Shown: positions 50,797 through 61,740 of the stretch, piece after piece
Position numbering within the stretch: position 1 is the first letter of the stretch
Layout of the letters: the number at the start of each line of letters is the position of its first letter
Origin: Kaistia dalseonensis
Lineage (GTDB): Bacteria; Pseudomonadota; Alphaproteobacteria; Rhizobiales; Kaistiaceae
Assembly: GCF_030814715.1 (NCBI RefSeq)
Contig: NZ_JAUSVO010000003.1
Location: 434,001 to 498,000 of the forward strand
Direction of reading: 5' to 3'
Length of the DNA stretch: 64,000 nt
Program-made: the position numbers and the translations under genes
Notes under the pieces: model-generated
Seen by the model: the letters and a program-made list of their open reading frames with translations, nothing else
Told to the model about the DNA's origin: nothing
Databases searched by the model: none

Positions 50797-52566
50797 TCAG
50801 GCCGCGCGGTAGACGCTCTTTCCCTCCTTGATCGTCTCGACGACTTTGAGTGTGATCAACTCCTCGGGTTTCACGGCGAGCGGGTTGGCGCTCAGGATCA
50901 CGAAGTCGGCGAGCTTGCCGGTCTCGATCGTGCCCTTGCTCGCCTCCTCGAAGTACTGAATGGCCGGCCAGATCGTCATGGCTTTGAGCGCGGTCAGCGT
51001 ATCAACCCTTTCCTCGGGCCCGAGCACATAGCCTGAGCGCGTCACGCGGGTAACCGTCGCCGACAGCACGCGGATCGCGTCCGGGTTCGCGACCGGCGCG
51101 TCGTGATGGCTCGTAAAGATCATGCCGAGTTTCCGCGCCGAGTTGCAGGGCGAGATGCGTTCAGCCCGCTCTGGTCCCAAGACCGAACTGCGATGCCAGT
51201 CGCCCCAATAGTAGGTATGCATCGGGAAGAAGGAGGGCAGGACAGCGAGTTCTTTCAGCTTCGGCAACTGGTCGAGCCTCGCAGTCTGGCCGTGTACCAG
51301 GACAGCGCGCCGATCGCCGGGACCGTGCTTCGCGGTCGCCGTCCCGACCGCCTCGATCAACCAGTCGACCGCCGCGTCGCCGTTGGCATGGGTGAGGATC
51401 TGCCACCCATTGGCGAAGGCGAGATCGACGGCGTCGACGATTTGCTCCTTGGTGATCGCCGCGTAGCCGCGATAGTCGGGGCGCTGCCCCTCCGGCGGCT
51501 TGTAGTAGGGCTGCGAGAGAAACGCCGTCTTGCCCTGGGGCGAACCATCGATGGTCGCCTTCGCGCCGCCGATCCGGACGCGGTTCTTGTAGTCGCGCGA
51601 CGGCGCAATCTCCCCAATTGACTGAAAGATGTCGGGATAAACGACGACATCGACATCGAGCAGCCCGGCCTCGCCTGCCCTCGCCAGCATGGTCGCGCTG
51701 CCGGGCATGGCACGACCCTCCTGGACGGTCGTGTAGCCGAAAGAAGCATAGAACGCGGCGCCCGCCTTGATCATTTCAAGATAGGCTTGCGCGTCGAGAC
51801 GGCCGAGAAGCTTGCCGGCGGCACCGAAGAAGGCCGCCTCCTCGCAAACGCCGTTTGGCGTCTCTCCATCGGCTTCGCGACGCAGCGCGCCGCCGGGCGG
51901 ATTGGGCGCCCCCTTCATCAGACCTGCATCCTCGAGGGCTTTGCTGTTCAGGACCCCGAGGTGGCCCGACTGGTGGACGATCAGGATCGGAGTTGCCGGT
52001 GAAACGGCGTCGAGGTCGGCGCGGGTCGGGTGGCGTTGCTCCTCAAGCTGTGAGTCATCGTAGCCGAAGCCGACGATGACGCCGTAGCGATTGATGACCT
52101 CGCTGTTCCTGGCGATCCAGTCGCGCAGGATGCGCTGCAACGCAGGAATGCTGTTGCCCTCGCCGTCAGGCGCCGGCAGAAGGTTCGCTGCGAGGGCCTG
52201 CAGCCCGACCATCACGACATGGCCGTGCGGATCGACGAAGCCGGGGAGCATCGTCTTGCCCATGAGGTTGACGGTCGTGATCAGACCTGTCGCTTGGCTT
52301 TCGACCTCGGCACGGGAGCCCACGGCGACAATTCTGCCGCCACGCACGAGCACCGCCTCGGCGGACGGCTGAGAATCATTGATCGTGACGATCGGGCCGC
52401 CAACATAGAGCGTATCGACGCTCTCAGTCGCCGCCTGCGCCGGGCTGCAAAGGAAGCTACGCGCCGTGCCGGCAAGGGCGATGCCAGCGATCGTTTGTTT
52501 CAGAACTCTTCGGCGCGAGATGGCTTTGGCGAGGGCGCCGGCGAACGGACTGCAAGCGATACACAT
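50797..52566 (-). CDS. Tat-exported amidohydrolase (YtcJ-like)
   Basis: This is a 589-residue amidohydrolase-superfamily enzyme of the YtcJ/amidohydrolase_3 group. The N terminus has a twin-arginine signal (ISRRRVLKQTIAGIALAG, then LCSPAQAA). Metal-site motifs are GFVDPHGHV (first His pair), a Glu/Lys region in the middle barrel, LTHANGDAAVD, VHGQTA and FTSHHDAPV with the final Asp. SKGTIETGKLADFVIL is the usual C-terminal hallmark. The ATG at 52566 is preceded by GGGGAG; a TTG at 52584 is also open. It probably hydrolyses an amide or imide in the periplasm; substrate unknown. It sits between decayed genes. Confidence 0.88.
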   Translation of the reverse strand: MCIACSPFAGALAKAISRRRVLKQTIAGIALAGTARSFLCSPAQAATESVDTLYVGGPIVTINDSQPSAEAVLVRGGRIVAVGSRAEVESQATGLITTVNLMGKTMLPGFVDPHGHVVMVGLQALAANLLPAPDGEGNSIPALQRILRDWIARNSEVINRYGVIVGFGYDDSQLEEQRHPTRADLDAVSPATPILIVHQSGHLGVLNSKALEDAGLMKGAPNPPGGALRREADGETPNGVCEEAAFFGAAGKLLGRLDAQAYLEMIKAGAAFYASFGYTTVQEGRAMPGSATMLARAGEAGLLDVDVVVYPDIFQSIGEIAPSRDYKNRVRIGGAKATIDGSPQGKTAFLSQPYYKPPEGQRPDYRGYAAITKEQIVDAVDLAFANGWQILTHANGDAAVDWLIEAVGTATAKHGPGDRRAVLVHGQTARLDQLPKLKELAVLPSFFPMHTYYWGDWHRSSVLGPERAERISPCNSARKLGMIFTSHHDAPVANPDAIRVLSATVTRVTRSGYVLGPEERVDTLTALKAMTIWPAIQYFEEASKGTIETGKLADFVILSANPLAVKPEELITLKVVETIKEGKSVYRAA

Positions 52567-52584
52567 GGATTGATCGCTCCCCAA

Positions 52585-52803: not shown

Positions 52804-53121
52804 TCATGGCAGCGGGATGGGGTGGAAACCCTCGGCTGAAGCACGGGCGGGAAGGTTCATGAGTCGACGCCCTTGGCCGCTCACTGCAGTGTCGTGAGCC
52901 TTCAGATGCGCCGCATCGATCATGATGCGCTCGGGCGTCGGCCGCTCGTCGGCGCGTCCGACGAAGATACGGTCAAACACGCCCAGCCCGCTCAAGCGTA
53001 TGACGCGGCTGTTGAGAGTCTTGAGTGCACCGCAGCCCGGCTGCGTCCTTCCGCTGGAGGCCGTTGTCGACCGCGTATCGGGATCGATGCTGATGGCATC
53101 GACCCCGAGGTGACACGACAA
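52804..53121 (-). pseudogene. IS5-family transposase remnant
   Basis: A degraded reading frame contains RVIRLSGLGVFDRIF followed by ERIMIDAAHLKAHDTAVS. This corresponds to the IS5-type pattern in which a ...RWxRLGVFDRIF segment precedes the first catalytic Asp in MIDATHLKAH. The N-terminal helix-turn-helix part is scrambled in other frames and the rest of the DDE domain is missing, so the element is dead. Its location between the amidohydrolase and formate dehydrogenase genes marks the edge of the rearranged region. Confidence 0.6.
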
Positions 53122-53236
53122 AAAGCAGGAGCCGGCCGATCCAGGCGCTCACGACAGCGGAGACGACAAGCACCAGAGCGAGATGCGCGGCGCCGTGACA
53201 ATCCCGCCGCCTCTTGGCGGTCGTAATCCGCGGCCC

Positions 53237-54397
53237 TCAACGCAGCTTGTATGATTGCGCGCCGGTGCCCGCGAGCTTGCCGCCATCGACGATCAGATAT
53301 TCCGGACGGATCGGACGGCCCTCGAAGAAGCATTCGAGGATCTCGAGCGTGCCGGCGGCATAGCGTGCCTGGGCCGATAGCGAGCTGCCGGACATATGCG
53401 GCGTCATGCCATTGAAAGGCATCGTCCGCCAGGGATGATCGGCCGGGGCCGGCTGCGGGAACCACACATCGCCAGCATAGCCCGCGAGCTTGCCCGAGTT
53501 CAGCGCCCGCACCACCGCGTCGCGATCGCAGAGCTTGCCGCGCGCAGTATTGATCAGATAGGAGCCGCGCTTCACATGCTCGAACATGCGGTCGTCGAAC
53601 ATGTTCTCGGTCGAGGGATAGAGCGGCGTCTGAAGGTTGATCACGTCGCAGGCCGCGACGAGCGATTCCGGCGTCTCGTGGAAGGTCAGTCCCAGTTCCT
53701 TCTCGACCGCCTCGGGCAGACGATGCTGGTCCATATAGTGCAGATGAACATCGAAGGGCTTCAGGCGCCTCAGCACGGCGAGGCCGATGCGGCCGGCCGC
53801 GATCGTGCCGAAATGCATGCCTTCGAGATCATAGCTGCGGCTGACGCAATCGGCGATGTTCCAGCCGCCATTGGCCGCAATCTGATGCGCCGGCAGGTAG
53901 TTGCGGACCAGCGACAGCACCATCATCACGACATGCTCGGCGACGCTGATGCTGTTGGAATAGGTCTCCTCGGCGACGGTGACGCCGTGGGCGGCGGCGG
54001 CCTGCAGATCGACATGGTCGGAGCCGATGCCGGCGGTCAGCGCCAACTTCAGCTTCTTGGCCTTGGCGATCCGCTCCGCCGTCAGATAGGCGGGCCAGAA
54101 GGGCTGCGAGATCACGACATCCGCATCCGGCAGATGGCGATCGAACTCCGAATCGGCGCCGTCCTTGTCGCTGGTGACGATCAATTCGTGGCCGAGCTTC
54201 TCCAGATAGGAGCGCAGGCCGAGCTCGCCCGAAACGCAGCCGACGAGTTCGCCCGGCTTGAAGCCGAGCGGCCCGACCGGGGTCGGGGTCGTCTGGCCGC
54301 CGGGATAGGCGGTGATCGCGGGGATTGTGTCCCGGGCATAGGCCGGCGGATAGCCGGTGACGGGATCGGGATAGAGAACGCAGAGAACCTTGGCCAT
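53237..54397 (-). CDS. fdhA: NAD-dependent formate dehydrogenase
   Basis: This 386-residue D-2-hydroxyacid dehydrogenase-fold enzyme oxidises formate to CO2 with NAD, without metals. It matches the methylotroph-type FDH across its length: AKVLCVLYPDPVTGYP start, QPFWPAYLTAERIAKAK, LALTAGIGSDHVDLQAA, GTIAAGRIGLAVLRRL (a Rossmann motif variant) and CDRDAVVRALNSGKLAGYAGDVWFPQPAPADHPWR with the catalytic His region. The ATG at 54397 has AAAGGAGC upstream; the frame to 54757 is spurious. It lies downstream of oxalate decarboxylase on the same strand, so it likely consumes the formate released there and yields NADH. Confidence 0.95.
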   Translation of the reverse strand: MAKVLCVLYPDPVTGYPPAYARDTIPAITAYPGGQTTPTPVGPLGFKPGELVGCVSGELGLRSYLEKLGHELIVTSDKDGADSEFDRHLPDADVVISQPFWPAYLTAERIAKAKKLKLALTAGIGSDHVDLQAAAAHGVTVAEETYSNSISVAEHVVMMVLSLVRNYLPAHQIAANGGWNIADCVSRSYDLEGMHFGTIAAGRIGLAVLRRLKPFDVHLHYMDQHRLPEAVEKELGLTFHETPESLVAACDVINLQTPLYPSTENMFDDRMFEHVKRGSYLINTARGKLCDRDAVVRALNSGKLAGYAGDVWFPQPAPADHPWRTMPFNGMTPHMSGSSLSAQARYAAGTLEILECFFEGRPIRPEYLIVDGGKLAGTGAQSYKLR

Positions 54398-54809
54398 GAT
54401 GGGCTCCTTTCGGGGAGGACGAAAAATGGGGCGCGACCGGGATGGCCCGAGACGGGGGCGGCGCGGTGGACGCGGAGGGCTCGGCGAAGGGCTTTGCTTC
54501 GCTGGCGGTTGCCCCCCCGGGAAGGACGGGCCAACCGAACGCGGACGACGGTGGCATCCCGGGCGCGAGGGGATTTTCAGGGCCGGATCCCTGCATATCT
54601 CGAATATCCGGCGTCGTTTCCTGATCGAAAGCCGCCGCGTCGCGCGAAGCTGATCGAGCGGCTTCGGCAGGCGGGCGATCCGCTGGAGACGGCGTCGCCG
54701 AGGCGAAGCGGCAGAGCGGAGCGGTATCCGGACCGTCCGATCATCGCCGCTTGCCATGGGCGTTATTGTGCCGGCCGAGTATCCTCTGCGCCGGCACGGA
54801 CGCTTCGGG
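54398..54809. other. 412-bp region between oxdC and fdhA
   Basis: No gene is recognised between the oxalate decarboxylase stop and the formate dehydrogenase start. Open frames here are GC-rich shadows. It may hold a separate fdhA promoter, but no convincing -35/-10 pair or palindrome was seen. Its length leaves open whether the two genes are co-transcribed. Confidence 0.4.
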
Positions 54810-55943
54810 TCAGCCCTTCACCACAGGCTGACGCGTGGAACGGAGTGACGACATCAGCGGATCACCGACATCGAGATGGCCCTCGACGAGATGCTTCGGC
54901 GTCAGCGCCAGCCAGTTATTGAGCGAGACATCCTTGTACTCGCCGGTATGGAAGACATTCAGGACGCGCATCGGCTCGTCGCCGATATTCTCGATATAGT
55001 GGGCGAGCGTCTTGGGAACGTAACCGACATCGCCGGCGACGAAGTCGAACGTGCGAGCATTGGCGACCGCATCGAAGACCGTCATGCGGGCCTTGCCACT
55101 GACGTAATACTGAATCTCATCGGCATCCGGGTGCCAGTGGATCTCGCGCAGGCCGCCCGGCTCGAGATCGATGAAGAGGGCTGCGAGATTGGTGACGCCG
55201 AAGGTCTTCGAGTCGATCACCTTCGTGGCGCCCCCCGGGAACGGCGTCGCGGCGACTTCGGAGGCGCGGAAGACATATTTGTCGGTGAATGTGACGGCAC
55301 CGAGCTGCTTGCGCACTTCGTCGAGCGGCGGCGGGACCGGCTGGCGGAAGATGTACTTCTCCTGAGCCGGGGTGCCCTCGAAGGCCTCGGGGGGAACGCC
55401 GAAGTTCTTGGCCAGCACCTCGCGCGGCGTATGGGCGAACAGTTCCGTCACGAGCAGCGTCTGATTCTCGGAGAAATTGCCGTCGTTGAAAACGAGCACG
55501 AACTCCGTGCCTTCCTCGAGGCCCTGGATCGCATGCGGGAAGCCGGCCGGAGCCAGCCACAGATCACCAGGACCGAGATCCTCGATGAGCGTCTGGCGCT
55601 GGTCGTCGACGAGATAGAAGCGCACGCGGCCCTTGAGCACATAGGCCCATTCGGCCTCCTTATGCCAGTGCAGTTCACGCACCACGCCAGCCGGCAGGCG
55701 CATGTTGACCATCGCGAGTTCCTTGAGCGAGCCGAGCTCCCGCTGTGTCACCTCGCGTGCCCAGCCGCCGTCCTCCAGACGATTGTGCGCCATGGCAAAG
55801 GGAAATTTGAGGTTCGGGATGCCGCCATGGTCGGAAAGCGGCGGGATCAGGATGTCGGGGTTCTGCGCCTCGACTTCCGGATTGCGCGGCCCGACGATGT
55901 CCGCACCTTTGGTGCCAACGATCGGTTGCTTCAGGATAGTCAT
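54810..55943 (-). CDS. oxdC: Oxalate decarboxylase (bicupin)
   Basis: This 377-residue Mn-dependent bicupin splits oxalate into formate and CO2. Cupin 1 has metal ligands His92, His94, Glu98 (ELHWHKEAEW) and His137 (FPHAIQG). Cupin 2 has His269, His271, Glu276 (EIHWHPDADEI) and His315 (LAHYIEN). The active-site lid reads SENQT at 158-162, keeping the Glu that distinguishes decarboxylase from oxidase. No signal peptide is seen at the chosen start (55943, RBS GAGGATC), so the enzyme is cytoplasmic. It is paired with formate dehydrogenase downstream and has a strong palindrome 58 bp upstream. Confidence 0.95.
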   Translation of the reverse strand: MTILKQPIVGTKGADIVGPRNPEVEAQNPDILIPPLSDHGGIPNLKFPFAMAHNRLEDGGWAREVTQRELGSLKELAMVNMRLPAGVVRELHWHKEAEWAYVLKGRVRFYLVDDQRQTLIEDLGPGDLWLAPAGFPHAIQGLEEGTEFVLVFNDGNFSENQTLLVTELFAHTPREVLAKNFGVPPEAFEGTPAQEKYIFRQPVPPPLDEVRKQLGAVTFTDKYVFRASEVAATPFPGGATKVIDSKTFGVTNLAALFIDLEPGGLREIHWHPDADEIQYYVSGKARMTVFDAVANARTFDFVAGDVGYVPKTLAHYIENIGDEPMRVLNVFHTGEYKDVSLNNWLALTPKHLVEGHLDVGDPLMSSLRSTRQPVVKG

Positions 55944-56504
55944 CGAGAGATCCTCGCTATTGGGACTAGATTTGATGGCAATTCCAAGCAGATCGTCCGA
56001 TGATACAGCGTGTATCAAATATAGATTTCGCCTATATCTGGATATTTTGCGAAATCCCAGTCGGATGTCTCTGGTGTTTCTGCCCAATAAAGATAGCCCT
56101 GGCCGGATATAGGGCTCCATTGAATGGCGGTATGAATTACCTATACGATCGTATGACTGCGATCTGACTGTCCGGTGATCGCGTCAACATCAGTATGATG
56201 GCAGCGGTCGGCACAGAGTGCGACCTTCGGCAAGGCACCGCGCCGCTTCCGTTTCGAAGCGTCGATCGTCAAACGACGCCGCGTGACGGCCGAACGCTCT
56301 CGGCCAATTCCTGCCATCTCGTCGCAGCGGGTCGGTCCGCCGCGGCGGCACTCATGCCGCCGGATGACCGACGTCGTGGTCGACGTCATGGCCGACAGGA
56401 TTCGGGTCCGTCTTCCCGACATGTCTGTCCCAGAGGTGGGCGGTGCCAGCCGAGCCGAAGCGCTTGCTTCGCATTGTCCCAACCTCCCGAGGCGACGTAT
56501 CGAT
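55944..56504. promoter_or_regulatory. Divergent promoter region of oxdC and the DUF1275 gene
   Basis: This 561-bp region holds no gene. The 200 bp nearest oxdC are AT-rich and contain TGATACA-GCG-TGTATCA (56001-56017), an ATATAG...CTATAT inverted repeat (about 56019-56038) and the perfect palindrome ATACGATCGTAT (56143-56154). The rest (56160-56500) is GC-rich with only shadow frames. The density of palindromes suggests tight control of oxalate use. Confidence 0.55.
56001..56017. promoter_or_regulatory. 17-bp inverted repeat upstream of oxdC (operator candidate)
   Basis: TGATACA-GCG-TGTATCA is a perfect repeat with 7-bp arms. The TGATACA/TGTATCA arms are of the kind recognised by GntR-family (FadR/VanR) regulators. 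No GntR gene is in the window, so the regulator would be encoded elsewhere. Confidence 0.6.
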
Positions 56505-57236
56505 ATGACCGCAAATATCCCCCTGCAAATCCCAGTTGCTGCCGACCTCAAGGCCCCGACGGCCAGCGCGCCGCTGCCGTCCACCGCCCCTCAAGGAGGC
56601 TCGGCGGCGCGCTACCCGTTTGCTTTCGCCCTCACGCTGACGGGTCTCGCCGGCTTTCTCGATGCGGCTGCCTATGTCCGCTTCAACCACCTCTATGTCT
56701 CGTTCATGAGCGGCAACAGCACCCATCTCGGCATCTCCGTCGCCGACTGGGCGGTGCCCGACCTCGTCGCCGTTCTCGGCGTCATCTCCGCTTTCGTCGC
56801 GGGCTCTGCCGTCGGCACATGGGTCGCCGACCATTTCGGCGCCCGGCTGATCGTTCGCGTACTCGCGCTCGAGGCTGGACTGTTCGCTGCCGCGATCCTG
56901 GCATCGCTCGCTTCGCTTTCGCTTTTCTGCGTGATGATCGTCGCCCTGACGATGGGCATCCAGAACGTCCTGCATCAGGCGGTTGGCGGGGTCGATGTCG
57001 GCAAGGGCTTCGTGACCGGCATGCTCTTCCGCTTCGGGCAGTCGATCGCGCGCATATCGGAGGCCAAGGTGACATGGCCCAATGCATCGACCTCGCTCTT
57101 GAACTGGCTGGCCTTTGTCGGCGGCGCGGCCTTGGGCGCGGTGGCCATTCGGCTACTCGACTTCACCGCATGCCTTGTCATCGGTTTCTGTCTGATCGTC
57201 GCCATGCTCGTCGTCGTGCCGTTGCGCCATCGGTGA
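56505..57236 (+). CDS. DUF1275 (YoaK-like) membrane protein
   Basis: This 243-residue protein has about six transmembrane helices. It matches DUF1275: the first helix ends in TGLAGFLDAAAYVRFNHLYVSFMSGNSTHLG, the family signature, and GIQNVLHQ...TGMLF lies in the middle. Its function is unknown; a transporter role has been suggested for the family. The ATG at 56505 is preceded by GAGGCG at a long distance, and upstream in-frame ATGs give no family match. It ends at a bidirectional terminator. Confidence 0.85.
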   Translation: MTANIPLQIPVAADLKAPTASAPLPSTAPQGGSAARYPFAFALTLTGLAGFLDAAAYVRFNHLYVSFMSGNSTHLGISVADWAVPDLVAVLGVISAFVAGSAVGTWVADHFGARLIVRVLALEAGLFAAAILASLASLSLFCVMIVALTMGIQNVLHQAVGGVDVGKGFVTGMLFRFGQSIARISEAKVTWPNASTSLLNWLAFVGGAALGAVAIRLLDFTACLVIGFCLIVAMLVVVPLRHR

Positions 57237-57348: not shown

Positions 57349-58269
57349 TCAGTCGGGAACGATGGACACCGTTGCCGTGAGCCCGGCCACCAGCTCAAGC
57401 GAGGGCGGCACGGCGTCGAGCACGACGCGGACCGGCACGCGCTGGGCGAGACGAACCCAGGTGAAGACCGGGTTCACCGTGGCGAGACCCGAGCCGTCCG
57501 GCTCGGCATTGGCGACGGCGATGCCGCGTCCGATGCCGACAACACGGCCCGGCAACGGTTCAGGATGCGCCATGAGCGACACCCTCGCGGCATCTCCGAC
57601 GCGGATGCCGGAGAGCAGTGTCTCCTCGAAATAGCCGTCGACCCAGAAGCTGTCGCTGTCGACGACGGAAAGCGCCCGCTGGCCGCTCGTCGCATAGTCG
57701 CCGGGCTGCGTCTGCAGATTCGTGACATAGCCATTCACGGGGGAGACGATCCGCGTGCGCTCGAGGTCGAGCTTGGCCTTGTCGCGCACGGCGATCGCCT
57801 GCTGCAGTGCGGCGGCAGCCACGGCCGCCGACGCGGCGAAGCTCTGCTGTTCCTCCTTGGAGACGACGAGCGCGTTGAGCGCGGCGCGCCTTTGCGCCTC
57901 CAGATTCTTGTTGTCGAGATCGGCCTGCGCGCCGGTGACCGCGGCTTCCGCATTGGCCAGTGCGATCTCATAGTCGCTCTGGTCGATCGCCATGAGCAGA
58001 TCGCCTTTGTGCACGAACTGATCCGCCTTCACGGGAAGCGCCGTAATCCGCCCCGAGACCTGCGGCGTCACGGTCACGACATAGGCGCGCACGGTTCCGT
58101 CCCGAGTCCAAGGCGTGGACATGTAGATCTGCCACATGCGCCAGCCGAGATAGCCGGCCAGCGCGACGGCCGCGATCGTCACGAGAAAAGCAGACAGCGA
58201 CCGAAGCAACGAGATCAGCCGCCCACCCCGTGGGGACATCGGCTCGACTGAAGTATTGGACGCACTCAT
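57349..58269 (-). CDS. HlyD family efflux adaptor (AaeA-like)
   Basis: This 306-residue membrane fusion protein is like AaeA. One N-terminal transmembrane helix (SAFLVTIAAVALAGYLG) is followed by TPWTRDGTVRAYVVTVTPQVSGRI, the lipoyl half that defines this subgroup, a coiled-coil hairpin (about 100-165) and the second lipoyl half IVSPVNGYVTNLQTQPGDY. The ATG at 58269 has GGAGAAT upstream and overlaps the stop of the DUF1656 gene. It forms a tripartite pump with the FUSC protein at 58491-60503. By analogy the cargo would be an aromatic carboxylate. Confidence 0.92.
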   Translation of the reverse strand: MSASNTSVEPMSPRGGRLISLLRSLSAFLVTIAAVALAGYLGWRMWQIYMSTPWTRDGTVRAYVVTVTPQVSGRITALPVKADQFVHKGDLLMAIDQSDYEIALANAEAAVTGAQADLDNKNLEAQRRAALNALVVSKEEQQSFAASAAVAAAALQQAIAVRDKAKLDLERTRIVSPVNGYVTNLQTQPGDYATSGQRALSVVDSDSFWVDGYFEETLLSGIRVGDAARVSLMAHPEPLPGRVVGIGRGIAVANAEPDGSGLATVNPVFTWVRLAQRVPVRVVLDAVPPSLELVAGLTATVSIVPD

Positions 58270-58472
58270 GGATATTCTCCAAAATAGATCACGATAAGCG
58301 AAAGGGTGATCACGTAGAGGCAGAGATTGAACAGGCCCGGGTGCCACATACGGCTGAAAAGCCGGTAGCGCGTCGTGATCATGGTGACCGGCGTGATGAT
58401 CAGCCAGGCGGCGAACATCATCACGACGAAGGGTGAGATAAAGACGCCGAGAATATTGACCTCGGTAAACAT
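58266..58472 (-). CDS. DUF1656 small membrane protein (AaeX-like)
   Basis: This 68-residue protein has two transmembrane helices. It matches DUF1656/AaeX: EVNILGVFISPFVVMMFAAWLI, then LYVITLSLIVIYFG. It is always found between the FUSC pump and the HlyD adaptor. Its four-base overlap with the adaptor gene and 18-bp spacing from the pump gene show a tight operon. Confidence 0.9.
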   Translation of the reverse strand: MFTEVNILGVFISPFVVMMFAAWLIITPVTMITTRYRLFSRMWHPGLFNLCLYVITLSLIVIYFGEYP

Positions 58473-58490
58473 GGATTATGCTCCTAGCCT

Positions 58491-60503
58491 TCAAGCGGTT
58501 GCTGCGCCGCCCGAGGTCAGCAGGTGCGGATGACCGTCAATGGCGTCGATGATCACGGCGATCGCGGCCCCGATCCGGTCGCCCATTGCAGACGCCGCGG
58601 CGGCGCCCGCCATCGCCCCCAGATGAGTGCGGGCAGCGTCCAGACGCGCATCTGCAAGAGCATCGAGCCCCTGGCGGAGAAAGTGCCGCTCAACGGCATC
58701 GAGCTGTGCCGATTTCAGTGAAATCACGGCCTGGCCCACGGCCAGCAACGAAAGAAGTGCGCTGACATCGGCGAGGGTGGCCCCGGCGGGAGCGGTCTCG
58801 AGCCGTCTTTCAAGTCGCTGCGTCCAGATCTCGATACGATCCGGCGTCTCGCGGCGCATGCACGCGCGGAGTTCGTGCAGCGAGTGCGTGATGAGGCGCC
58901 TCATCCGAAGCTGCGGGCTGGGCACCGGCAGAACCACGAAGAAGAGCACCCCCGCGAGATTACCAACGATGATGGCCAGGCAGAGATTGAAATAGGCGGC
59001 CGCGTCATAGGTGGTCGGGTTGCCAAGGCCGAGCATCGGCAGCGCGCTGATCGTCATGGCGAGGAAGACGATCGGGTGCCAGGTGCCGGCCTGCAAGAAA
59101 CCGAGCATCGCGAACAGCAGGAACAGGAGGCACAGCAGCGCGGGGAAAGTCGTGAAGGCTGGCAGAAGCCCGAAATAGATCAATCCCCCCGCGACGGCCA
59201 TCAAGGTCGTGCCGATTGCATTGTCCCTGGCAAACGCCGGCGCCGCATCATCGCGTGCAACGAAGACGAGCGTCACCACGGCGGTGAAGACGATGGCGAA
59301 GGAGCCGCTCGACCAGCCCGTCACGATGGCGAAGATCGAGATCGCAAGGACGGCAGCGAAGGCGCGGAAGCCCGCGAGAAATGTGAGGAGCGGATCGTCA
59401 ATGACGAGGCGACGCCTTCGGATTGGCCGCACCTCGGCCGCGCAGCCACGGAGTACCAGGAGCGCATCCGCCGTCGTGGCCAGATAGCAGACGACATCGC
59501 GGGTCGCGCTCTTCAACAGGCCGTCGAGCGATCCGGCGCCCGGCATGGCGTCGAGGTCGCGCAGTGTCCTGACGCTCGCCGCTTTGAGTGTGGCGGGATC
59601 ACGCCCGATCGTCGCGGCGGCGAGAGACCTCACCAGTTCCGCGAGATGCGCCCGTGTCGCGGCTCCGTCTGCGCCAGGGCGGCCGGGGTGGTGCCCCACA
59701 TTGCGCCAGCCTACCAGAGCGGCAAGCAGGGCGTCGCGAACGGCGTTGAGATTGCCGCGCCTCGCGTGACGATGCGGCGAGCCCGCTATCGTCGCTTCGA
59801 TGGCCGCATTCAGCGGCGCGAGCGCGTGCGTAGCCTCGCGCCTTGCCGCGCGCATGTCGTCGGTTTCGGTTGCGCTGGCCATCGAAGCGACGAAGCCGGA
59901 TGCGACCTCGCCGGCGCTGCGCTCCAAAAGGCCAGCGAGCTGGCGGCCGGCCTGGTCGAGATCGGTGACGAGCATCACGAGCGTCGCCGCCCCGATGCCA
60001 ATGCCGATTTCGCTGACGCGAATGAGGGACAGGAAAAAGGCGTTGGTCGGATCGGTGAGCGTATCGGCGAAGATGATCGTTGCCGTGATGCCAGCCAGCG
60101 CCGCCGCATAGGCCGCAAAGCCCTGCAGGGCGACCGCGGCGAAACCGCAAAGCCCACAAAAGAGCGCCATGCTGAGAATGAGCATGTCGCGTTCCTGGGC
60201 GAAAAGACCGAGCAGCGCCACCATGACCAGAGCGCCCGTCAGCGTGCCGAGGATCCGGTAGCGCCCTTTCTGCAGCGAGGCGCCGAAATTGGCCTGACAG
60301 ACGATGGCCGCAGTCGTCGCGGCCCAGAACGAGTTCTGGAGTTCGAGATAATAGGTGATCGCAAGTGCCAGGCACACTGATATCGCGAGGCGAAATGCGA
60401 AGAATAGGCGCTGGCCGAGCGAACCCCGCAGATACAGGATCACTTTCAGCGGGCGATGGGCCTGCGAGCCCATCGGCAGACCGAGGCGGGACGTCACGCT
60501 CAT
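58491..60503 (-). CDS. FUSC family efflux pump (AaeB-like)
   Basis: This 670-residue inner-membrane transporter is of the aromatic acid exporter/FUSC family. Two groups of about six helices (residues 30-170 and 360-510) are each followed by a cytoplasmic domain, as in AaeB. LQNSFWAATTAAIVCQANFGASLQKGRYRILGT is the family signature. The ATG at 60503 has GGAGATGG upstream. With the adaptor and DUF1656 it should export phenolic or hydroxybenzoate-like acids. The AraC-type gene at 60835 on the same strand, upstream, is a plausible regulator. Confidence 0.92.
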   Translation of the reverse strand: MSVTSRLGLPMGSQAHRPLKVILYLRGSLGQRLFFAFRLAISVCLALAITYYLELQNSFWAATTAAIVCQANFGASLQKGRYRILGTLTGALVMVALLGLFAQERDMLILSMALFCGLCGFAAVALQGFAAYAAALAGITATIIFADTLTDPTNAFFLSLIRVSEIGIGIGAATLVMLVTDLDQAGRQLAGLLERSAGEVASGFVASMASATETDDMRAARREATHALAPLNAAIEATIAGSPHRHARRGNLNAVRDALLAALVGWRNVGHHPGRPGADGAATRAHLAELVRSLAAATIGRDPATLKAASVRTLRDLDAMPGAGSLDGLLKSATRDVVCYLATTADALLVLRGCAAEVRPIRRRRLVIDDPLLTFLAGFRAFAAVLAISIFAIVTGWSSGSFAIVFTAVVTLVFVARDDAAPAFARDNAIGTTLMAVAGGLIYFGLLPAFTTFPALLCLLFLLFAMLGFLQAGTWHPIVFLAMTISALPMLGLGNPTTYDAAAYFNLCLAIIVGNLAGVLFFVVLPVPSPQLRMRRLITHSLHELRACMRRETPDRIEIWTQRLERRLETAPAGATLADVSALLSLLAVGQAVISLKSAQLDAVERHFLRQGLDALADARLDAARTHLGAMAGAAAASAMGDRIGAAIAVIIDAIDGHPHLLTSGGAATA

Positions 60504-60834
60504 TGATGCGCCATCTCCTATGCACGTGGAAATGGCGTGAGACTAGGCGTTTGGCCCGCAAGCGAAATCATACGATGGGAACAGGCGATAGCACCTTGGT
60601 TTGCCCCGCCTGATGCCAATCAGGCGATCAGCACGTCACACCAAAGGCCGACCCATCGCCCGCGCCGACACGCCGACGACAGGCCTCATCGGATGCACGG
60701 TCGCCGCAGCTCGCCGGTGGAAGCGGAGCGGCCGGTCCGGGTCGGTCTGGATGGCTTCTCGACCACCGCCATCGTCTTGCAGATCGGGCCGTGGCGGGGA
60801 CGCGGGTGGCACCCCGTCGCATCGGTGCCGGACA
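60504..60834. other. 331-bp gene-free region upstream of the efflux operon
   Basis: No gene is recognised between the araC-like gene and the FUSC pump gene. It should contain the promoter of the efflux operon. No clear palindrome or -35/-10 pair was seen, and the open frames are shadows. Confidence 0.4.
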
Positions 60835-61740
60835 TCAGCGTCGCTGTGCATCCTGCCACGCCTTCGGCGACACCCCCATCTCGCGTGAGAAGACTCTCGT
60901 GAAATGGCTCTGGTCCGCGAATCCGCAGGCCACCGCGATCTCGGCGATAGTCATCCGCGACTCCACGAGAAGTTGCCGCCCCCTGTCGACGCGCATCTTG
61001 AGGAGCCAGCGATGCGGGGTCATTCCGGTCACGCGGGCGAACTGGCGTGCGAAATAGCTGGGCGTCAGGCCGCAGGCTGCCGCGATCTCCATGATTGTGA
61101 GGTTTCCGTCGAGCCTGCTCGCGATCATCTCCTGGGCCCGTTTCAATTGCCAGGCCGCGAGCCCTCTTGCGACGGCGCGAGGTTCGAGCTCCGTGCCATA
61201 GGCAGCCGCGATATGCGTGCACAGCGCGACCATTGCCTGATCCAGGAAGAGCTGACTGAGCTCGGCCGAATGCTCGAGCGCCGCCGTCATGGCGAGTCCC
61301 AGATGGGTGATCACGGGGTCGTGGAAGCCCTGCCCCGTCACAACGCGAAGGTCGCCCATTGGCGGCCGACCGCCGGCGAGCGCGAGATTGTCGAAGTAGC
61401 GCCTCGGTATATGGAAATGCAGCGTGTCGAACGGATCTTCGAGCTTCGCCTCGACGCTGTTGCGAAGATCGAAGAAGGCGCAGTTGTTCCGCAGCAGTCC
61501 TGTCTGCGACGTGCTTCGGCCGTCGAGCCAGAGCTCGCCCTTCGCGTAGTCGATCAATTCGAGCGAGAGCGCATAGCCTTCCTGAGCGGGCACGGGATCG
61601 ACGAAGCCGAAATCGGCGCCGCCGGTGATGCGGGCAATGGTGACATCGGGCGCCAGCGATCCACCAACCGAGAGCGCCGTGACAATCGTCTTGCTGTGCC
61701 AATGCTGGTCGAGGCGCTCGCCATAAGAACCCTTATCCAT
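60835..61740 (-). CDS. AraC family transcriptional regulator
   Basis: This 301-residue regulator has a C-terminal double helix-turn-helix (about 200-298). The first motif is around NLTIMEIAAACGLTPSYFARQFARVTGMTPHRWL and the second around TIAEIAVACGFADQSHFTRVFSREMGVSPKAW, both close to the AraC/XylS signature. The N-terminal 180 residues are a non-cupin-like effector domain with RSTSQTGLLRNN. The ATG at 61740 is used. It precedes the AaeXAB-like operon on the same strand and probably controls it in response to an aromatic acid. Confidence 0.9.
   Translation of the reverse strand: MDKGSYGERLDQHWHSKTIVTALSVGGSLAPDVTIARITGGADFGFVDPVPAQEGYALSLELIDYAKGELWLDGRSTSQTGLLRNNCAFFDLRNSVEAKLEDPFDTLHFHIPRRYFDNLALAGGRPPMGDLRVVTGQGFHDPVITHLGLAMTAALEHSAELSQLFLDQAMVALCTHIAAAYGTELEPRAVARGLAAWQLKRAQEMIASRLDGNLTIMEIAAACGLTPSYFARQFARVTGMTPHRWLLKMRVDRGRQLLVESRMTIAEIAVACGFADQSHFTRVFSREMGVSPKAWQDAQRR

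Follow-up and report, generated by a model that had tools for sequence, protein, structure and literature searches.

We analyzed a 64,000-nucleotide stretch of the 5.18-Mb genome of Kaistia dalseonensis (the window, on which coordinates are given) that carries the genes for an oxalate decarboxylase (oxdC) and a formate dehydrogenase (FDH; fdhA) on the reverse strand and, divergent from oxdC, a gene for a DUF1275 membrane protein. DUF1275 genes accompany oxdC repeatedly in bacteria and also in an archaeon, and we read the window locus as oxalate-catabolic, with import by the DUF1275 protein, decarboxylation by OxdC and formate oxidation by FdhA. We give this reading, as a whole, a probability of roughly 0.5. 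It draws on the identities of the enzymes, the recurrent DUF1275-oxdC linkage, the linkage of FDH with oxdC in the genus, a conserved dyad and a modeled fold, all computed here.

The DUF1275 protein would import oxalate as a half-size carrier of the major facilitator superfamily (MFS), presumably in the form of a dimer. Cytoplasmic OxdC would split oxalate into formate and CO2 with the uptake of one proton, and FdhA would oxidize the formate to CO2 with the formation of NADH. Control of the divergent DUF1275 and oxdC genes would be shared through the dyad ATAC-N4-GTAT in the region between them. The probable regulator is a locally encoded protein that reads this dyad (the cluster of the relatives includes an AraC-type gene), as opposed to a GntR-type protein at a nearby palindrome. 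We infer the substrate and direction of the DUF1275 protein, the co-expression of the genes, NADH as the benefit and the regulator.

Linkage of DUF1275 genes with oxdC

The DUF1275 gene (56505..57236, forward strand; start codon uncertain) encodes a six-helix membrane protein that matched PF06912 with 97.3 bits (gathering cut-off 25.4) and is a candidate oxalate or formate carrier. The window locus was compared with 80 oxdC loci fetched from a species collection (the best 80 of 346 hits), which gave a set of 81. In 27 of the 81 loci, neighbor clustering and profile searches placed a DUF1275 gene no more than 1 kb from oxdC: upstream on the same strand in 12, downstream on the same strand in 12 and divergent in 3. 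One of these (L110), in which the DUF1275 gene overlaps the downstream end of oxdC, was placed by its coordinates. About 0.1 such neighbor is expected in 81 loci, as estimated from 25 copies in 13 genomes (about 66 Mb). No DUF1275 gene was found at 51 control loci (46 loci with FDHs from other families and 5 other loci of thiamine pyrophosphate enzymes, with flanks of 1.5–2 kb), a set that excludes the second FDH of the window genome, which does adjoin a DUF1275 gene.

The linkage was found at all levels of OxdC identity: 15/36 loci at 72% or more, 7/24 at 59–67% and 5/21 below 59%. The five most distant linked cases, all from metagenome-assembled genomes (MAGs), are titled Solirubrobacterales, Ktedonobacteraceae, Nitrososphaeraceae archaeon, Anaerolineae and Actinomycetes; the linked MAGs include Chloroflexota, Actinomycetota and an archaeon. 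The linked copies are as little as about 20% identical to that of the window and occur in the three arrangements. Because three arrangements and subfamilies only about 20% identical are involved, we consider that the pairing arose repeatedly. In our estimate, DUF1275 is likely to be functionally tied to OxdC. Fifty-nine plasmid records hold an OxdC relative, and in one of six regions examined (Granulicella tundricola) a YoaK family (DUF1275) gene lies two genes downstream of oxdC. No published description of the link was found in the open literature searched.

An AEC permease gene (PF03547; two of these permeases were scanned) was present within 1 kb of oxdC in 16 of the 81 loci, in Proteobacteria and in Sphingobacterium/Flavobacterium. 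DUF1275 and AEC permease genes occurred together at none of the 81 (hypergeometric P 0.0006, uncorrected for kinship). The AEC family includes carboxylate carriers, and its member at these loci is a second carrier candidate. In Rhizobium-type loci and an Anaerolineae MAG, oxdC and DUF1275 also have genes for an ATP-binding cassette ATPase and a UPF0014-type membrane protein nearby (L073, L079, L082 and L105; Pfam run on L079 and L105).

In a tree of DUF1275 proteins, nine copies of the type upstream of oxdC (Acetobacter, Gluconobacter, Kaistia hirudinis, Methylobacterium and others) formed one group with a support of 1.0. The window protein fell into a group of 15 (support 0.89) whose other members come from oxdC loci, except for the copy that adjoins the second FDH and a single unlinked copy from the genus Kaistia; three members of this group lie 4–8 kb from oxdC (L035, L069 and L076). 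The remaining 19 unlinked copies of the genus split into three groups of 5, 6 and 8.

Predicted fold and proposed carrier role of DUF1275

The AlphaFold2 model of the window DUF1275 protein, built with 26 sequences, had a mean predicted local distance difference test score of 89.7 and a predicted template modeling score of 0.82, and is built from two repeats, each comprising one helix, one short helix and a long helix pair. A Foldseek search with this model gave nothing significant (best E-value 0.23). VIA-align gave Z scores of 11.9–13.8 over about 160 of 243 residues for the 50 matches listed, in a range (12–14) that, according to the tool, helical bundles can reach through arrangement alone. 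From their titles, we take 49 of the 50 to be MFS-type transporters, the title of 9d7u being uninformative, and the top Foldseek matches are of the same type. The oxalate-bound form of the MFS carrier OxlT (PDB 8hpk) ranked 37th of the 50, with a Z score of 12.3 and 3.7 Å over 162 residues; the model fits one six-helix half of OxlT, about half of whose length the DUF1275 protein has. OxlT was not recovered by a profile search of PDB sequences with DUF1275. By its model, the DUF1275 protein is predicted to form a six-helix half of the MFS fold. In TCDB, DUF1275 (the YoaK family, TC 9.B.143) is listed, with function unknown, alongside other families built on the six-helix MFS unit, as stated in a passage of PMC7778945, and the window protein resembles this family in both its PF06912 match and this unit. 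The half-MFS fold of DUF1275 is already known; the link with oxdC is the part that is new to us.

The type II scheme of oxalate degradation, as described in a passage of PMC10192776, shares the decarboxylation of oxalate by OxdC with the window locus. That passage names OxlT as a possible carrier, whereas the window genome has no OxlT match (TIGR04259) over the cut-off, and it makes FDH the last step of the type III route, whereas in the window FDH adjoins oxdC. The first-pass annotation saw no oxalate transporter nearby, which holds for OxlT and overlooks the divergent DUF1275 gene. That DUF1275 carries oxalate is a tentative assignment, to which we give somewhat less than even odds. We also propose, with similar reserve, that oxdC-linked DUF1275 proteins may be half-size MFS carriers of oxalate (or oxalate:formate) that were recruited repeatedly in bacteria and archaea, are swappable with AEC permeases and, together with OxdC and an NAD- or NADP-type FDH, constitute a previously unrecognized oxalotrophic module.

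Identities of OxdC and FdhA

The oxdC gene (54810..55943, reverse strand) encodes a bicupin of 377 amino acids that matched TIGR03404 with 500.3 bits (cut-off 254.2) over residues 11–375. The frame is also open from 56120, and the alignment of the relatives begins at the start at 55943. The nearest relatives, genomes G018 and G024, have OxdC proteins 97% and 96% identical to it, respectively. The alignment with Bacillus subtilis OxdC (YvrK, PDB 1j58/5vg3) is a full-length bicupin alignment that spans residues 4 to 376 of the window protein. Both enzymes have the Mn ligands HWH...E...H in each cupin and the lid Glu. The ligand stretches of the window protein, HWHKEAEW/PHAI and HWHPDADE/AHYI (His-His-Glu-His), are invariant across seven aligned OxdC proteins, as is the SEN of its lid SENQT (residues 158–162), in which Glu159 is equivalent to Bacillus Glu162. 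The Glu of the SEN-motif lid distinguishes oxalate decarboxylase from oxalate oxidase. The window enzyme differs from that of B. subtilis in having Asn329 (54957-54959) for Glu333 in the second site, and in the FDH and DUF1275 genes that neighbor its gene. These alignments indicate that OxdC is a genuine decarboxylase-type bicupin. OxdC relatives with 52–53% identity are also held by archaeal MAGs of Nitrososphaerales and Nitrosocosmicus (L094, L096, L098 and L099), one of which (L094) has a DUF1275 gene 279 bp downstream of oxdC.

The fdhA gene (53237..54397, reverse strand) encodes 386 amino acids and matched NF005750 (NAD-FDH) with 690.6 bits (cut-off 329); the nearest solved structures are formate dehydrogenases. 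Its cofactor loop, HYMDQHRL, has Asp at the position of Asp221 (PseFDH numbering) and Gln where PseFDH has Arg222. Both enzymes are ordinary members of known families, and their identities, judged from such matches and alignments, are highly probable. The first-pass calls are borne out in this respect: the two Mn sites and lid Glu of OxdC by the alignment with the B. subtilis enzyme and the SENQT lid, and the neighboring FdhA as an NAD-type FDH by its NF005750 score and the Asp at the cofactor position. The same annotation regarded the pair as an alternative to the oxalyl-CoA route, in agreement with the presence of both enzymes and with the finding that oxalyl-CoA decarboxylase (oxc, TIGR03254) had no match over the cut-off in five genus genomes searched, including that of the window.

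Pairing of fdhA with oxdC

Three genomes out of 14 in the genus, and four out of 28 in the family, contain the FDH type of the window. All three genus genomes carry one copy just downstream of oxdC, and for this reason a linked oxalate-to-CO2 route through OxdC and FDH is plausible. In Rhizobium sp. Root708 (L071) the order is reversed, with fdh about 120 bp upstream of oxdC on the same strand. Cooperation between OxdC and FDH is, in our estimate, fairly likely. An open reading frame 7.5 kb from oxdC in L107 was grouped with the FDHs by neighbor clustering; the FDH search did not recover it, and it was left uncounted.

No terminators or sigma-70-like promoters above the level of shuffled sequences were found in the region. 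Two other features on the far side of fdhA were set aside. The gene that follows fdhA encodes an Amidohydro_3 protein (50797-52584) and was rejected as a part of the module because it is not kept near oxdC in the relatives, and a transposase remnant suspected by eye at 52804-53226 had no Pfam match.

A second FDH with a different cofactor loop

The genome holds a second FDH (G000:C3:625514-626668; L018/L025) that is 97% identical to FdhA. The similarity of the DNA ends at the borders of the coding sequences (window 53244-54407). Within these borders, 18 of the 41 nucleotide differences sit in a 43-base stretch (positions 662–704, with numbering from 0) coding for the cofactor loop, into which 7 of the 12 amino acid differences fall. 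The loop is HYMDQHRLPEAVEK in the oxdC-linked FDH and HYTQRHRLADEVER in the second FDH, which has Gln-Arg at the cofactor positions where FdhA has Asp-Gln. According to a passage of PMC4410396, Asp221 of PseFDH confers NAD specificity and Arg222 participates in NADP binding, and a passage of PMC5817062 associates NADP use with Asp221Gln and with the natural Gln of Burkholderia stabilis FDH. At these positions the second FDH (Gln-Arg) is like the NADP-dependent enzyme of B. stabilis, from which the window FdhA (Asp-Gln, NAD type) differs.

We surveyed 397 genomes of the order, which gave 55 FDH matches, 49 of them outside the family of Kaistia. The loops of 46 of these 49 were examined, and without exception they carry Asp at the cofactor position. 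Gln was found at this position in the second FDH copy and in the FDHs about 6–7 kb from oxdC in L079 and L082. Judging by the loops, the genome probably holds NAD and NADP versions of one FDH, whose likeness outside the loop may be due to recent copying or gene conversion. Close to the second FDH there is also a set of genes that look HlyD/FUSC-like by eye. The FDH paralogue of G024 that lies away from oxdC (L031/L122, G024:C10:8754-9908) has Glu-Arg-Tyr at the cofactor positions.

Probable control region between oxdC and the DUF1275 gene

The first-pass annotation took a 17-bp TGATACA/TGTATCA repeat, TGATACAGCGTGTATCA, as a control site and suggested a GntR-type regulator. The exact palindrome is indeed present at 56001..56017, and we judge it to be a chance occurrence. 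Of 500 dinucleotide shuffles made from this intergenic region, 167 contained a perfect palindrome with 7-bp arms and a spacer of 0–8, and 27 contained one with a spacer of exactly 3; with a spacer of 0–8, such palindromes were also found in the 400-bp upstream regions of 41 of 84 relatives (81 distinct genomes or loci, as L022–L024 repeat L032, L033 and L061). None of these 84 regions contained the motif with fewer than four mismatches, and no such repeat was present at the aligned position in G018 and G024. The genome contains no second exact copy and three further places at two mismatches, versus two for a control pattern. The palindrome was rejected as an operator on the grounds of its chance-level frequency, its lack in the nearest relatives and its single genomic copy. 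The suggestion of a GntR-type regulator is likewise not supported: another dyad is conserved, and the cluster of the relatives contains an AraC-type regulator. No GntR gene was found among seven window proteins scanned; some neighbors were left unscanned, and no genome-wide GntR search was made.

The dyad ATAC-N4-GTAT, ATACGATCGTAT, lies at 56143..56154 in the gap between the divergent oxdC and DUF1275 genes. It also occurs at the corresponding positions of G018 and G024, where the arms are kept and the spacer differs each time, and is, as far as sequence conservation can tell, a better operator candidate than the palindrome. The genomes of the window, G018 and G024 contain 7, 8 and 7 copies, respectively, and 12, 2 and 4 copies of the reversed control pattern. 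The oxdC locus accounts, in a span of about 10.1 kb, for 3 of the 8 dyads of G018 and 4 of the 7 of G024 (binomial 6e-7 and 7e-10, for a span of 10.2 kb picked after the sites were seen). Of the further dyads at this locus, one in each relative precedes an AraC-type gene, one in G024 precedes a small gene, and each relative has one at another place. The window genome homologues of this AraC-type gene (53%, 236 residues) and small gene (41%, 92 residues) sit at the second FDH locus, where one dyad lies 145 bp upstream of the small gene (DUF1344-like, labeled by eye); an ancestral cluster may have been split in the window genome. The longer form CATAC-N4-GTATA occurs at three places in the window genome (control 0), namely at oxdC, at the small DUF1344-like gene and at one place elsewhere. 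It is missing upstream of the second fdh and its DUF1275 gene, and we claim no regulon. The HlyD-like, FUSC-type efflux and AraC-type genes at 57349-61740 of the window retain their place next to the DUF1275-oxdC block in G018 and G024.

Alternative explanations

Several observations weigh against the oxalate-catabolic reading. In addition to the insignificant Foldseek result, the range of the VIA-align scores and the choice of the binomial span, 54 of the 81 oxdC loci, some of them with short flanks, have no DUF1275 gene inside the 1-kb limit, and 20 of the 25 DUF1275 copies of the genus are not beside oxdC, with one more beside the second FDH. DUF1275 was found near oxc at none of 19 alphaproteobacterial loci (some on short contigs), which argues against a general oxalate carrier; the placement of DUF1275 beside oxc as a general rule was rejected on this count, despite the Acetobacter aceti region that reads uctB-oxc-uctC-duf1275 in a passage of PMC3720670. 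The 80 fetched loci are best hits in which close relatives are over-represented, and the counts are not independent events. Only 6 of the 81 loci have an FDH gene 10 kb or less from oxdC (the window, L032, L071, L079, L080 and L082), and the oxdC-fdhA gap (54398..54809, reverse strand) of 412 bp, versus about 270–276 bp in the two nearest relatives, is unlike that of a tight operon. The Asn329 replacement lies in the second site of OxdC. One of seven dyads of the window genome is at oxdC and the reversed control is commoner there, so that the counts alone prove nothing; the unrelated oxdC region L103 also carries the dyad.

The DUF1275 protein might carry another substrate, namely formate or bicarbonate outward, or an amide. 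A DUF1275 gene adjoins the second FDH, with no oxdC in the 18 kb around it, and amide transport has been suggested from amidohydrolase neighbors (repeated in a passage of PMC12316277); the window contains an Amidohydro_3 gene. However, among 87 loci searched at E 1e-25, a homologue of this amidohydrolase lies near oxdC only in L059 (27% identity), and DUF1275 is exchanged with a permease family that contains carboxylate carriers. We regard a different substrate as unlikely, though it is the best of the alternatives to oxalate import.

In acid resistance, OxdC would serve chiefly to consume cytoplasmic protons, FDH and the membrane protein would only clear formate, and energy from oxalate would be incidental. 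The clusters of G018 and G024 contain genes that, by eye, resemble those for a CPA1-type sodium/proton antiporter, a Dps-like protein and two-component regulators, and a reference cited in a passage of PMC10192776 describes the B. subtilis enzyme in its title as acid-induced. However, the window locus lacks these genes and has an unrelated amidohydrolase gene after fdhA, and proton consumption does not need an FDH that returns NADH. We consider this explanation rather improbable.

Least probable is that OxdC and FdhA are loose neighbors, with OxdC detoxifying oxalate, FdhA handling formate of other origin from its own promoter and the adjacency in three close species reflecting one inherited event; the 412-bp gap, the many oxdC loci without FDH and the second fdh away from oxdC in the window genome and in G024 are in its favor, whereas the separate fdh-oxdC adjacency in Rhizobium sp. 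Root708 and the FDHs within 10 kb of oxdC in L079, L080 and L082 speak against it.

Implications

Three findings might be unexpected to a specialist: the link between DUF1275 and oxdC, the exchange of DUF1275 with AEC permeases, and the FDH pair with differing cofactor loops. This nearly identical pair would show how one genome may divide the electrons of formate between NADH and NADPH. By its genomic company, DUF1275 is a good candidate for the missing oxalate carrier, and a widespread family of unknown function that accompanies oxdC would provide a direct candidate carrier, open to one transport experiment.

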